Positions 1 to 38,610 of a stretch of 42,941 nt of DNA are shown piece after piece (position 1 is the stretch's first letter; each line of letters starts with the position of its first letter). The stretch is from Rhodospirillales bacterium. GTDB taxonomy: Bacteria; Pseudomonadota; Alphaproteobacteria; Rhodospirillales; Magnetovibrionaceae. The translations under genes were made by a program, and so were the position numbers. The DNA lies in NCBI GenBank assembly GCA_024653965.1, contig JANLGW010000087.1, positions 1 through 42,941 of the forward strand, written 5' to 3'. Under the pieces are notes generated by a model. That model searched no databases. It worked only from the letters and a program-made list of their open reading frames with translations, and was not told the DNA's origin.

Positions 1-361
1 CGGCAAACAGCCAGAAATTGACGCGCAAAAATCCGGCGGCAAAGGTGATGGGATCGCCGATGATCGGCACCCAGCTGAGCAGCAGACTCCACACCCCCCA
101 TTTGGCAAACCAATGGTCGGCTTTGTCGAGGTCGTCAACTTTAAAGGGAAACCACTTGCGGCCTTGCCAATGCAGGCACCAGCGGCCCAGCGCCCAATTC
201 ACCATCGCGCCCAACACATTGCCCGCCGTCGCCACGGCCCACAGCAATAGCCAATCGAACCCGCCCGCCGCCGTCAGCCCCGCCAGCACCGCTTCAGAAG
301 AAAAGGGCAAAATCGTCGCAGCCAAAAAGGCCGACAGAAACAGGCCGATGTAACCGTTCAT
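1..361 (-). CDS. yqaA: YqaA-family inner-membrane protein (partial, 3' end outside window)
   Basis: The minus strand is open from an ATG at 361 to the window edge, giving 120 residues without a stop. It starts MNGYIGLFLSAFLAATILPF, followed by a Ser-Glu turn, further hydrophobic helices, and LLLSWVPIIGDPITFAAG. This pattern matches YqaA, a small DedA/VTT (SNARE-associated) relative of about 140 residues, so only a short C-terminus is missing. The best parallel is the Ser-Trp-x-Pro-x-x-Gly-Asp motif near residue 95. The family lies in the cytoplasmic membrane; DedA relatives have been linked to lipid-carrier movement and membrane homeostasis, but YqaA itself has no firm function. It begins 4 bases after the panC stop, so it is probably the last gene of a panB-panC-yqaA unit. 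Confidence 0.78.
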   Translation of the reverse strand, partial: MNGYIGLFLSAFLAATILPFSSEAVLAGLTAAGGFDWLLLWAVATAGNVLGAMVNWALGRWCLHWQGRKWFPFKVDDLDKADHWFAKWGVWSLLLSWVPIIGDPITFAAGFLRVNFWLFA

Positions 362-31167: not shown

Positions 31168-31788
31168 TCAGTTGACGGCGGCACCGAAGCGCGGCGGGAC
31201 CACGTTGATCACCACCGTCGGGCCAATGGTCGGCGTCAACGCAAAATTGACGTCCTTAGCTTCGTAGCGCCCTTCCCACACCGGCACAAAACGCAGCGTA
31301 ACGCTTGAACGCGCCTTTAAGCGCACGCCGTTGACGCAGCCGGTGGCCGGGGTTTTGTCGCCGAACTGAATGCTTTCGAGCGCCACCCCGGTTTTCAGAA
31401 AATCCGGCGCCCAAAAATCGTGATCCTTTGCATCGGCGTTTTCCAACACCAAGATGTATGGGCGATTTTGTTCCAACGACATGATCATGGGCCTGAAATC
31501 GCCATTCACGACACGCATCCGATAGGGCTGTACCGCCGCCCAATCGATGTCTTTTTGCATATCGGCACGATTGGCCAAACATTCATTAATGAAAGTCGAG
31601 GGCCTTGCGTTGGTGGACGTCATGCATCCACTCAAAGCCACGCCCAAAACAAAGGCTCCGCCAACCACGCCCACCCGGTTTTTCAAGCGCGGACGGCACA
31701 GTTCAACGCGACCCGCGAATCGATTCGCAAATCGACTTTCGATTCGCTGAACGAATCGAAAAAAACCCTTTACTTTCAATGCGGGCAC
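31168..31788 (-). CDS. cupredoxin-like outer lipoprotein
   Basis: The protein has a lipobox (FVLGVALSGC, Cys55 in the longest version), so it should be lipidated and exported. The mature part of about 150 residues has a cupredoxin-like pattern: RPYILVLENADAKDHDFWAP with His at the first ligand position, then TGCVNGV carrying Cys and VPVWEGRYEAKDV strands. Metal binding is suggested but the full Cys-His-Met set is not clear. Start choice is unsure: the frame opens with a GTG at 31788 after a G-run, giving a 54-residue pre-lipobox segment, unusually long. A TTG 34 codons later would give a normal signal peptide (MKNRVGVVGGAFVLG). Palindromes at 31715-31760 fall in this doubtful part. Confidence 0.6.
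   Translation of the reverse strand: MPALKVKGFFRFVQRIESRFANRFAGRVELCRPRLKNRVGVVGGAFVLGVALSGCMTSTNARPSTFINECLANRADMQKDIDWAAVQPYRMRVVNGDFRPMIMSLEQNRPYILVLENADAKDHDFWAPDFLKTGVALESIQFGDKTPATGCVNGVRLKARSSVTLRFVPVWEGRYEAKDVNFALTPTIGPTVVINVVPPRFGAAVN
31715..31760. repeat. pair of TTCGATTCG palindromes at the lipoprotein gene start
   Basis: GCGAATCGATTCGC (31715-31728) is a perfect 14-base palindrome. Ten bases further, TTCGATTCG (31738-31746) and CGAATCGAA (31752-31760) make a perfect 9-base stem with loop CTGAA. Both use the same CGATTCG word. They lie within the 5' end of the lipoprotein reading frame. Confidence 0.7.
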
Positions 31789-34055: not shown

Positions 34056-34631
34056 ATGCTCAAAAACATCCTCGGATCCATTGTCTTCGTCGTCGTCGTC
34101 CTCGCACTGATCAATTTCATCGGCGATGCCATGGTTGACCCGGCCACTTCACCGCAGTCGCCAAGCCCCCTGAAGGCTGAAATCCAGGCCCCCACGCCCG
34201 AATCCGCCAAAGTATCCGATGCCGCGCCCGAGGCGGATCAACCCGAAGAAGTCGAGCCCGAAGCGGTTGAGCCCAAGGTCGTTGAACCGCAAGAGACTGA
34301 GCGTACCATTGCCATGGCGGGCGACGCAGCCGCGGGCAAAAATATTTTCCGCAAAAAATGCATGGGCTGTCATACCGCGACCAAGGGTGAACCCGACCGT
34401 ACGGGACCGAACCTATGGGACGTCGTCGGGCGCAAAAAAGGCGCGTCCCCAGAATATCGTTATTCGACGCCCATGAAGGCTTTGGGCGGCGTGTGGAACG
34501 AGGCGGATATTTTAGGCTTCATCGCCGGGCCGCGCACCTTCCTGCCCGACACCAAGATGACCTTCGCCGGGATTAAAAACGAACAGGAACGCGCCGATAT
34601 CCTCGCCTTTCTCAACACCTTAAAGGACTAA
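34056..34631 (+). CDS. membrane-anchored cytochrome c (CycM-like)
   Basis: The 191-residue protein has an N-terminal anchor helix (about 4-22), a Pro/Glu/Val-rich spacer (about 30-85 with repeated VEPxxVEP) that holds the haem domain away from the membrane, and a class I cytochrome c domain. The domain has CMGCH (102-106), GPNLWDVVGR (117-126) and axial Met168 in FLPDTKMTFAG. This is the pattern of alphaproteobacterial CycM/cytochrome c552-type carriers linking the bc1 complex to oxidases. AAAGGA precedes the ATG at 34056. It starts an eight-gene plus-strand run; hisN lies 6 bases downstream. Confidence 0.92.
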   Translation: MLKNILGSIVFVVVVLALINFIGDAMVDPATSPQSPSPLKAEIQAPTPESAKVSDAAPEADQPEEVEPEAVEPKVVEPQETERTIAMAGDAAAGKNIFRKKCMGCHTATKGEPDRTGPNLWDVVGRKKGASPEYRYSTPMKALGGVWNEADILGFIAGPRTFLPDTKMTFAGIKNEQERADILAFLNTLKD

Positions 34632-34637
34632 CGGCGC

Positions 34638-35411
34638 ATGACCGATCTGCACCCCTTCACCACGCTGGCCGCTCGGCTGGCCGACGCCGCCCGGCCGGAA
34701 ATCATGAGCCGCTTTCGCACCGGCATCCACGCCGATGTAAAGGCCGACTGTTCGCCGGTGACCGAAGCCGATCGCGCTTCGGAACGCGCCATGCGCGCCC
34801 TGATCAGCGAAACCTTCCCCGACCATGGCATCTTGGGCGAGGAATACGGATCGGAAAACATCGATGCCGAATACGTGTGGGTGCTCGACCCCATTGACGG
34901 CACCAACTCGTTCGTCACCGGCAAACCCCTATTCGGCACGCTGATCGCACTCTGTCAAAACAAGGTGCCCATCGTCGGCGTCATCGATGCACCGGGGGTC
35001 GGCGAGCGCTGGATCGGGGCAAAAGGCCAGCCCACCACCTTGAACGGGCAGCCCGTGACCACCCGTCCGTGCGCCGAACTCAGCACATCGTGGCTGTACG
35101 CCACCACTCCGGCCATGTTCAAGGGCGACAACGCCGAAGCGTTCGCCCGCCTCAGCCAAGCCGCCTGGCGCACGGTATACGGCGGAGACTGTTACGCCTA
35201 TGGCCTGCTGGCATCGGGGCACGTCGACTTGGTGTGCGAGGCCAGCCTCGGCACCTATGATTTCTGCGCCTTAGCCCCGGTTATCGAGGGCGCAGGCGGC
35301 ATCATCACCGATTGGTATGGCAAATCACTTTCGATGAATTCCGACGGTCGAGTGCTGGCGGCGGGCGATAAAACACTGCATACTCTGGCTTTGAGGGCGC
35401 TTAATCGTTAA
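34638..35411 (+). CDS. hisN: histidinol-phosphatase (inositol monophosphatase-like HisN)
   Basis: The 257-residue inositol-monophosphatase-fold enzyme has Mg2+ site residues in GEEYG (near 69-73) and VLDPIDGTNSF (near 82-92), and then GGDCYAYGLLASGHVDLVCE and YDFCALAPVIEGAGGIITDW. The tail of the second block and the GGDCYAYG motif are characteristic of HisN, which dephosphorylates histidinol phosphate in histidine synthesis in many Alphaproteobacteria, rather than of inositol or fructose bisphosphatases. It follows the cytochrome gene by 6 bases and precedes the diguanylate cyclase gene by 26. Confidence 0.9.
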   Translation: MTDLHPFTTLAARLADAARPEIMSRFRTGIHADVKADCSPVTEADRASERAMRALISETFPDHGILGEEYGSENIDAEYVWVLDPIDGTNSFVTGKPLFGTLIALCQNKVPIVGVIDAPGVGERWIGAKGQPTTLNGQPVTTRPCAELSTSWLYATTPAMFKGDNAEAFARLSQAAWRTVYGGDCYAYGLLASGHVDLVCEASLGTYDFCALAPVIEGAGGIITDWYGKSLSMNSDGRVLAAGDKTLHTLALRALNR

Positions 35412-35437: not shown

Positions 35438-36712
35438 ATGACCGAAAAACACGATTGGGAAGCCGAGCTTCTCTGCGCCATCTCCAATTTGGTCTGCGTG
35501 CTCAACCAAGGACGCATCACTTATATCAATCCCGCAGGCATCACGATGTTGAGCGCCAAAGACGCCGATGCCGTATTGGGCCACGAGTTGGCGGATTTTG
35601 TGCATGCCGACTACGCCGATCTGCTGGCGCTGGGTATCGAGGCCTTCGCCGAGGAAGAAGCCGGCATTCCATTGAAACTACGCCCCATCAATGCTTCGCC
35701 CATCGACGTGCAGATGCGGGTGCGCGAATTGAAAGACCGCGCCGATGGCGACTACATGGTCGAGTGTCGCGACATTTCAAACTATATCCGCGCCTCTGAA
35801 GATGCGCGGCGGCGCGAACAGCGCTTGGGCGGCGTGCTGGCTACGGTCGGCGACGCCATCATCACCATCGACCAAAAAGGCATCATGCAGACCGTCAACC
35901 CCGCAGCCGAACGCATGTTCGGTTACGCCAAAAACGAAATGATTGCTCAGAACGTCAAATTACTGATGCCCGACCAATACGCCGACCACCACGACCAATA
36001 CTTGGACCACCACGTCAAATCCGGCGAATCGCGCCTTATCGGGCGGTCGCGCGAACTTGAGGGACAGCACAAAGACGGCACCAGATTTCCCATCGAGCTG
36101 TCGGTGACGGAACTGCGCGAAGGCACCCAACGCCTATTCACCGGCGTGGTGCGCGACATCACCGAACGCAGAAAAGCTCAGGAAAAAATCGAACACCTGG
36201 CTCATCACGATCCTTTGACGGGCCTGCCCAACCGCAATCTGTTCACCGAACGCATGGAGCGCGCAATCTATCGCGCCAAACGATCCGGCAAACCGTTGGG
36301 CCTGATGTTCGTCGATTTAGACAAGTTCAAACCCATCAACGATCAACTGGGACACGAAGCCGGAGACACGGTGCTCAAGACGGTAGCCGAGCGCATGGCC
36401 CATTGCGTGCGAACGTCCGATACCGTGGCGCGCATCGGCGGCGACGAATTCGTTGCCATCTTGGAAAATCTGGACCACTGGGAAAGCGCCGCTGTAGTGG
36501 CGCAAAAAATCATCCGCGCCCTAACCCAGCCCATCGATGTCTCCACCAACAAAACCGCACAGGTAGGCGCATCCATCGGCATCGCCATTTTCCCCGGAGA
36601 CGGCAATACCCTTGACGATCTGTCGCGCGCCGCAGACGTCGCCATGTACGCGGTCAAAGAAGCGGGCCGCAACAACTTCAAATTTTTCAACCAGCTCAAC
36701 AGCGCCGCTTAA
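35438..36712 (+). CDS. PAS-PAS-GGDEF diguanylate cyclase with FixL-like second PAS
   Basis: The 424-residue protein has a first PAS domain (about 12-120), a second PAS (about 128-245) and a GGDEF domain (about 250-424). The cyclase is intact: DPLTGLPNRNLF, FVDLDKFKPINDQLGHEAGD and GGDEF (334-338), with an inhibitory RxxD site RTSD at 325-328, so it should make c-di-GMP from two GTP and be product-inhibited. The second PAS has LLMPDQYADHHDQYLDHH, in which His185 lines up with the haem-binding His of FixL, and Arg205 with the FixL pocket Arg. An oxygen or redox sensor is therefore possible, but many non-haem PAS domains share this motif. It is flanked by hisN and yejA with short gaps. Confidence 0.9.
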   Translation: MTEKHDWEAELLCAISNLVCVLNQGRITYINPAGITMLSAKDADAVLGHELADFVHADYADLLALGIEAFAEEEAGIPLKLRPINASPIDVQMRVRELKDRADGDYMVECRDISNYIRASEDARRREQRLGGVLATVGDAIITIDQKGIMQTVNPAAERMFGYAKNEMIAQNVKLLMPDQYADHHDQYLDHHVKSGESRLIGRSRELEGQHKDGTRFPIELSVTELREGTQRLFTGVVRDITERRKAQEKIEHLAHHDPLTGLPNRNLFTERMERAIYRAKRSGKPLGLMFVDLDKFKPINDQLGHEAGDTVLKTVAERMAHCVRTSDTVARIGGDEFVAILENLDHWESAAVVAQKIIRALTQPIDVSTNKTAQVGASIGIAIFPGDGNTLDDLSRAADVAMYAVKEAGRNNFKFFNQLNSAA

Positions 36713-36723
36713 AAGGGACGCTC

Positions 36724-38610
36724 ATGATCCGGCCCAACACCGTTTTTACCTTCGCCCTTTGCGCTTTCATGCTGATGCCTTGGGCCGCCGTCGAAGCAGA
36801 TGACGCGCACCACCCGCAAACCACGCCCCCGCAGATTAGCAGCGAAGAGACCGTCGCCACGCACGCCATCGCCATGCATGGCCAGCCAAAATACGCGGCG
36901 GATTTCACCCACTTTGATTACGTCAACGCAGAAGCACCCAAGGGCGGCACGCTGCACCAGGGCGCGCAAGGCAGCTTCGACAGCTTCAACCCGTTCATCA
37001 TCAAAGGCGACAGCGCCGCAGGCGCAGGCAGCATTTACGACACGCTGATGACACCCAGCGAAGACGAGGCCTTTTCCCAGTACGGGCTGCTCGCCGAAAC
37101 CGTAGACATGCCCGATGACCGCAGTTGGATTGCGTTTCACCTGCGCAGCAACGCCAAATGGCACGACGGCCAGCCCATCACCGCCGACGACGTGATCTGG
37201 ACCTTCAATACCTTGATGGAAAAAGGCGCGCCGTTTTACCGCTTTTATTATGCCAGCGTCGCGAAAATCGAAAAACTCGATGAACGCAGCGTCAAGTTCA
37301 CCTTCAAACCCGGCGAAAACCGCGAGCTGCCCCTGATCGTCGGGCAAATGGCGGTGCTGCCCAAACATTATTGGCAAACCCGGGATTTTGAAAAAACCAC
37401 GCTGGAACCGCCCTTAGGCTCCGGCCCGTACAAATTCGGCGCGTTCGAAGCGGGTCGTTACGTGCAATATGATCGGGTGAACGATTACTGGGGCAAAGAC
37501 TTAGCAGTCAATGTCGGCAAAGCCAATTTCGACGCGCTGCGTTATGAATACTTCCGCGACGAAAACGTGATGGTCGAGGCGTTCAAGGGCGGGGTTATCG
37601 ACCTTAGGGTCGAAAACATTTCCAAGATCTGGGCCACCGCCTACGACATCCCCGAAGTCGCAAACGGCCAGATCGTCAAAGAAGAACTGAGCCACCAGCG
37701 CACCGCGCCGATCCAGGGTTATATCTTTAACCTGCGCCGCGACCTGTTCAAGGATGCGCGGGTACGTCAAGCGCTAGCCTATGCGTTCGATTTTGAATGG
37801 TCCAACCGCAATCTGTTTTACGGCCAATACGCCCGTTCGCGCAGCTATTTTGGCAACTCCGAACTGGAAGCCAAAGGCTTGCCTCAGGGCCGCGAGCTGG
37901 AAATTTTAAACGCTTACCGCGGGCGCATTCCCGACCAAGTGTTCACCGCCGAATACACCCCGCCCGCCACCGACGGCGACGGACGCATCCGCGACAACCT
38001 GCGCGAAGCGGATCGGCTGCTCAAGGAAGCCGGCTGGGAAATACAAGGTGCGCAGCGTGTCCATAAAGATAGCGGCCAGGTTTTCGACTTTGAAATCATG
38101 CTGGTCAGTCCCGCCTTCGAGCGCGTCACCTTGCCCTTTTCCAAGAACTTGGAACGCTTAGGCATCACCGCGCATGTGCGCACGGTCGATTCTTCGCAGT
38201 ACGTCAAACGAACGGAAACGTTCGATTTCGACATGATCACCTCGATTTGGGGCCAGTCCCTATCGCCGGGCAACGAACAGCGCGATTTTTGGGGTTCAGG
38301 CGCGGCGCAAACCGAGGGTAGCCGCAACCTCATCGGCATCAACGATGCTGTGGTGGACGAATTGATCGAATTGCTGATCGCCGCACCCAACCGCGAAGAA
38401 CTGGTGGCGCGCACCCGCGCACTGGACCGTGTGTTGCAATGGGGGCATTATCTGATTCCACAGTGGTATTCCAGCATCGACCGCATCATCTATTGGAACA
38501 AGCTATCGCACCCCGACGTCATCCCCCTGCAGGGCGCGGATTTAGGCTCGTGGTGGTTTGACGCCACCAAAGCCGCGACGATCAAAAGCGCCAACGGGCA
38601 GGCTAAATGA
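36724..38610 (+). CDS. yejA: ABC transporter periplasmic binding protein, YejA type
   Basis: A 628-residue family 5 solute-binding protein for oligopeptides. It has an N-terminal signal peptide ([20 protein letters not shown], cleavage near VEA at 25), then the family pattern GLAETV-type start, [45 protein letters not shown] and DVRVxN-like regions. YejA proteins deliver peptides (in E. coli also microcin C; in some Alphaproteobacteria peptidoglycan fragments) to the YejBEF membrane complex. It is followed by yejB after 37 bases. The GGDEF gene lies 11 bases upstream, an unusual regulatory neighbour. Confidence 0.94.

Follow-up and report, generated by a model that had tools for sequence, protein, structure and literature searches.

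The locus examined here raises the question of whether a bacterial diguanylate cyclase reads oxygen, or another state of a haem iron, through a FixL-like PAS domain. The window, by which we mean the whole stretch of 42,941 nucleotides that was analysed (contig JANLGW010000087.1 of a Rhodospirillales bacterium), contains a gene that a preliminary description, made from the letters of the DNA, had assigned to a diguanylate cyclase with a FixL-like second PAS domain. Pfam profiles placed PAS matches in two stretches of the 424-residue product and a GGDEF domain behind them (E 5.8e-51), and the second PAS domain (PAS-B) matched FixL without a gap, in agreement with that assignment. The first PAS domain (PAS-A) gave no match to the FixL family model NF041777, which covers residues 112-254 alone. 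The features discussed below are listed in Table 1.

Table 1. Positions in the window of the cyclase gene, its predicted domains and residues of interest, and its neighbours
Feature	Position	Strand	Basis
Cytochrome c, N-terminal hydrophobic segment, upstream, likely same operon	34056..34631	+	PF00034
hisN, histidinol-phosphatase, conserved upstream neighbour	34638..35411	+	TIGR02067, 303.5 bits, above cut-off
PAS-PAS-GGDEF diguanylate cyclase, 424 aa, ATG start	35438..36712	+	ORF and profile matches
PAS-A, about residues 12-118	35471..35791	+	two Pfam stretches for several PAS models
PAS-B, predicted FixL-type haem PAS, about residues 125-245	35810..36172	+	phmmer to FixL chains, AF2 model, structural alignment
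F-alpha helix, residues 179-195, with haem-ligand candidate	35972..36022	+	DSSP on model, residues 70-86
His185 codon, equivalent to BjFixL His200 / DosP His77	35990..35992	+	alignments
Arg203 codon, equivalent to BjFixL Ile218 / DosP Met95	36044..36046	+	alignments
Arg205 codon, equivalent to BjFixL Arg220 / DosP Arg97	36050..36052	+	alignments
GGDEF catalytic domain, residues 255-413	36200..36676	+	PF00990, E 5.8e-51
RxxD inhibitory-site motif RTSD, residues 325-328, intact	36410..36421	+	motif
GGDEF active-site motif, residues 334-338, intact	36437..36451	+	motif
yejA-like peptide-binding protein, first gene of yejABEF-like importer, conserved downstream	36724..38610	+	PF00496

Resemblance of PAS-B to FixL

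We compared PAS-B with FixL and with non-haem PAS domains, as the preliminary description had proposed. In phmmer searches, residues 118-242 aligned without a gap with R. meliloti FixL (1d06; E 6.4e-31); the E-value for B. japonicum FixL (BjFixL; 8js5) was 4.8e-29. DosP came next (1.3e-13), and no non-haem PAS chain did better than about 1e-6. Over 106 PAS-B positions, 48 residues were identical with R. meliloti FixL and 43 with BjFixL. Judged from these alignments, the likeness of PAS-B to FixL is real and far beyond chance.

An AF2 model of residues 110-256, calculated from 11 sequences and without haem, had a mean pLDDT of 82.8. Residues 19-147 of the model superposed on residues 143-271 of the FixL chain (Z 21.1, 1.1 Å rmsd, 129 aligned), a fit that is not independent of FixL, which was among the solved structures on which AF2 was trained. 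Other PAS domains scored lower, with DosP at Z 15.6, the FG214 haem PAS at 15.3 and the highest row whose title names no haem PAS at 14.8. A modelled fold shared with FixL shows by itself no function. The PAS fold and the ungapped FixL alignment group PAS-B with the haem PAS domains of the FixL/DosP type.

The whole protein is neither a FixL sensor kinase nor a DosP. Its output domain is GGDEF and its score against NF041777 is 138.5 bits, compared with a cut-off of 850; it carries Arg203 at the place of the DosP Met (+18), has no EAL match and scores 146.5 bits against NF008467 (cut-off 857). Flavin PAS domains have a conserved F-alpha Trp (FAD) or a Cys (FMN, LOV) (PMC10468136). Residues 125-250 are free of Trp and Cys, and a flavin PAS was rejected.

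Residues of the predicted haem pocket

The offset of the structural alignment (19..147 on 143..271) places His185 on BjFixL His200 and Arg205 on BjFixL Arg220. The second PAS domain had been described as containing LLMPDQYADHHDQYLDHH followed by an Arg at 205, and this is what we found: the segment spans residues 175-192, and the FixL-matching His of its HHD pair is His185. The spacing from this His to Arg205 is +20, as in FixL and E. coli DosP; position +18, which holds the Met ligand in DosP, is Arg203. Both marks of a haem PAS, a His in the ligand place of F-alpha and a distal Arg at +20, are thus present. The Tyr-x3-His-Asp-x-Tyr segment, to which the preliminary description had likened this region, is a poorer guide. 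Its first Tyr is present (Y181), but this Tyr is not diagnostic because Asp takes its place in B. japonicum FixL.

For the remainder of the pocket we used 21 positions that, with their numbering, we take to be those of FixL; of these, our data support only His200 and Arg220 (alignment offset and title of 1y28). Twelve of the 21 are identical to BjFixL and most of the others are conservative, the hydrophobic pocket being retained. The distal change is Arg203 for Ile218, which puts an extra charge on the distal strand. On the propionate side, BjFixL Arg206 is replaced by His191, DosP likewise having His, and BjFixL His214 by Arg199, likewise Arg in R. meliloti FixL and DosP. BjFixL Tyr207 corresponds to His192. 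The distal and propionate-side differences from BjFixL count against a haem-bearing PAS-B. From sequence and model together, we consider it quite likely that PAS-B holds haem via His185, and a contact of Arg205 with O2 in the window protein is plausible from the alignment.

Conservation of His185 and Arg205

Homologues were taken from named genomes, 100 relatives' genomes and 317 genomes of the order, with 40 further stretches added. From 89 loci we obtained 79 distinct proteins of at least 300 bits, which together with the query make 80 rows related by descent, so that the counts below are not independent. A homologue was counted as being in the same place when hisN and yejA were both found by tblastn inside the retrieved stretch, and 16 of the 80, query included, had this order (hisN-DGC-yejA); flanks were mostly 1.5-2 kb, short enough that some of the loci scored as non-syntenic may be truncated, as L004 certainly is.

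Among the 16 same-place orthologues His185 was invariant. It is one of 12 invariant columns among the 121 of PAS-B and the sole one between 179 and 216: positions 179-184 and 186-193 all vary, and the nearby columns 184, 187 and 190 rank with the most variable of all. Position 205 ranked 98th of 121 in conservation, with Arg in seven of the 16, Met in four, and Lys, Ile, Ser, Val and Leu in one each. This pattern indicates that strong constraint in the hisN-yejA place acts on the proximal His but not on the distal Arg. Across the wider set, His185 was found in 53 of the 80 homologues, among which position 205 was Arg in 10 and Val in 30. Arg stood at 203 or 205 in 41 of these 53, and at both only in the query. 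None of the 27 homologues without His185 was in the same place, and 15 of them had at least three gaps between residues 178 and 199, compared with one of the 53 that have the His. In a quick tree made without the PAS-B columns, with long branches flagged, the query grouped with members of its taxonomic family in a clade of 11 rows (SH-aLRT 99), and the minimum number of changes on the tree was six for His and 10 for Arg.

These counts qualify the earlier proposal that Arg205 contacts bound oxygen. It stays plausible for the window protein, with its FixL spacing, but the residue is conserved neither in the same-place group nor among the His-bearing homologues. A conserved Arg as an O2 signature of the family was rejected on these counts, and shared O2 chemistry in the family is doubtful because Arg205 varies even within the genus.

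Haem may be bound while the cyclase reads the Fe(II)/Fe(III) redox state, or NO, CO or H2S, and not O2; orthologues that lack the distal Arg would then be fast-oxidising redox switches. Such a reading would account for the low rank of position 205 next to an invariant His185, and it agrees with an excerpted report that loss of Arg97 in DosP speeds autoxidation (PMC4263535). However, the window protein keeps Arg205 at the exact FixL spacing, which makes O2 at least as likely a ligand, and we give redox or other-gas sensing a small but real chance. A different alternative would do without haem: His185 could be a structural or other-ligand residue inherited from a FixL-like ancestor, in a domain that dimerises or binds a metabolite. 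PAS ligands are hard to predict, and distal and propionate residues do drift among the orthologues. Within the F helix, however, this drift spares His185 alone, and the helix often shrinks where the His is lost; a haem-less PAS-B seems to us improbable.

Several groups of homologues differ around the pocket. In three proteins of the same genus (L002, L003 and L066) His185 is kept, while Cys188 at the place of FixL Tyr203 and Trp236 at that of FixL Gly251 point to a remodelled pocket. Family f22 (L072, L074, L088-L100 and kin) has the same architecture with His185 and Arg203, and Val205 for Arg205; here the distal Arg may have shifted two residues along the strand. In the Terasakiella group (L005, L006, L077, L078 and L080) Tyr or Phe stands in for the ligand His while the F helix keeps its length, and these variants are natural candidates for haem-less or Tyr-ligated PAS domains. 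Natural variants include Met205 (L001, L059, L062), Lys205 (L007) and Tyr185 (L005).

The catalytic part

GGDEF and RxxD are both intact, which places the protein among the diguanylate cyclases; judged by motif, its catalytic site is intact. Cyclase activity is a prediction from these motifs, but with both of them intact and GGDEF kept in all 16 same-place orthologues and in 79 of the wider 80, an inactive GGDEF part that signals through protein contacts is very hard to credit.

Genomic neighbourhood

The cyclase gene had been reported to lie two genes after a cytochrome c gene and directly before a peptide importer, and the coordinates bear this out; the genes after the yejA-like one scored above the YejB and YejE-type cut-offs. 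Gaps along cytochrome c-hisN-DGC-yejA are 6, 26 and 11 bp, and from this spacing we infer that the four genes probably form one operon read as one transcript. A scan for promoters and terminators was uninformative, with two promoter-like sites (1.0 expected) and two terminator-like sites (4.2 expected). The cytochrome c gene was found in 12 of the 16 same-place loci, and L063, L071 and L079 have no cytochrome match between kdsB and hisN. We accordingly downgraded the cytochrome c as a dedicated partner, and its link to the cyclase is weak. Positions 31168-31788 of the minus strand encode a small protein resembling a lipoprotein. Its match to cupredoxin is weak (E 0.0064, under the cut-off), and its gene sits upstream of dnaX and close to pheA.

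Other candidate haem-type PAS domains in the genome

The nearest named relatives and the kinship codes suggest that the genome comes from a Magnetovibrio-like Rhodospirillales bacterium. The genome comparison covered 24 distinct PAS stretches, the query not among them, from loci matched by P0001 or the FixL model and thus a part of all PAS genes; nine carry the FixL His and six both His and Arg, the His/Arg site lying outside three of the 24. One of the six (L160, L161, L163, L164, L141 and L145) lies in a GGDEF protein (C119:985-2640) and five in frames that also match the FixL-model kinase part. No FixL above the family cut-off was found in the genome; none of 14 control genomes passed this cut-off either. 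A cbb3 oxidase is encoded (ccoN above cut-off). The window PAS-B would thus be one of about seven such PAS domains in a genome suited to low oxygen.

Discussion

Taken together, our results favour a soluble cyclase whose PAS-B carries a b-type haem on His185, as in FixL and DosP, with the state of the haem setting c-di-GMP output, and on balance we hold this joint reading to be reasonably probable. Under it, O2 binding or a change between Fe(II) and Fe(III) would alter PAS-B in its F-G loop and C-terminal helix, and this shift would change how the GGDEF dimer packs and thereby c-di-GMP output; both the direction of the response and control through the dimer are suppositions. PAS-A would probably serve in dimerisation or as a second input. 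We expect a five-coordinate Fe(II) haem because residue 203 is Arg and not the Met of DosP, and Arg205 would stabilise O2 on this FixL-like haem. As to the signal, we lean slightly towards a cyclase gated by O2.

FixL of R. meliloti and B. japonicum is the closest known system, sharing the ungapped match, His ligand, distal Arg, hydrophobic pocket and PAS fold. It differs in its histidine kinase output, and the window protein in turn differs from FixL in the three residues that replace Ile218, Arg206 and Tyr207 and in a PAS-A unmatched by the FixL model. E. coli DosP (PdeO) likewise has a haem-type PAS ahead of c-di-GMP domains with the same His/Arg spacing, whereas the window protein has Arg at the Met95 place, lacks EAL and is 24-28% identical over the domain. 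According to excerpts of one DosP study (PMC4263535), Arg97 holds bound O2, autoxidation rises more than 400-fold in R97A and R97E and reaches 0.16 per min in R97I compared with 0.0053 in the wild-type, and M95A or M95L increases O2 affinity. By analogy, fast oxidation may make redox reporters of the orthologues whose residue 205 is Met, Ile, Leu, Val or Ser.

Haem-binding PAS cyclases have been described before. In an excerpted account, KoBdcA of Kosakonia is a PAS cyclase that loses hemin on mutation of its His and shows higher activity with O2; its likeness to the window protein is one of description, and it differs in being described as membrane-bound and linked with the synthesis of cellulose (PMC13141831). 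SSFG_02181 of Streptomyces ghanaensis, a membrane PAS-GGDEF-EAL protein and in this unlike ours, binds hemin with its cyclase activity unchanged by haem, according to the excerpted paper (PMC7374567), an analogy that counts against haem control of the window cyclase. The PAS-haem entries in the part of a 2022 census table considered here are the phosphodiesterases AxPDEA1, PdeO and RbdA, and its haem-sensing cyclases use globins (PMC8846402); the FixL/DosP haem cluster of a 2023 survey takes in such PAS domains. As to a possible identity with CdgA of Azospirillum, excerpts of the paper on that protein do not mention haem, and in a plasmid search Azospirillum hits reached at most 38% identity among the 15 listed of 304 records. 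We found no paper on the window protein and none on FixL R220 in the open-licence literature. The window protein adds to an already known sensor type, of which two haem-binding PAS cyclases (KoBdcA and SSFG_02181) are published.

A bolder and distinctly speculative proposal concerns the family. Cyclases resident in this operon could keep their haem ligand fixed and swap the distal residue fast (Arg, Met, Lys, Ile, Val, Leu, Ser), re-tuning an O2 sensor to redox or another gas between neighbouring species; in the Met form this residue, placed two positions from the Met of DosP, could serve as an internal sixth ligand of a new kind. If our preferred reading of a haem-bearing PAS-B is true, a soluble GGDEF-only enzyme would join the short list of cyclases controlled by a haem PAS. 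Its orthologues, in which the proximal ligand stays constant and the distal residue changes, would then offer a natural series for asking how the distal residue sets O2 versus redox sensing.
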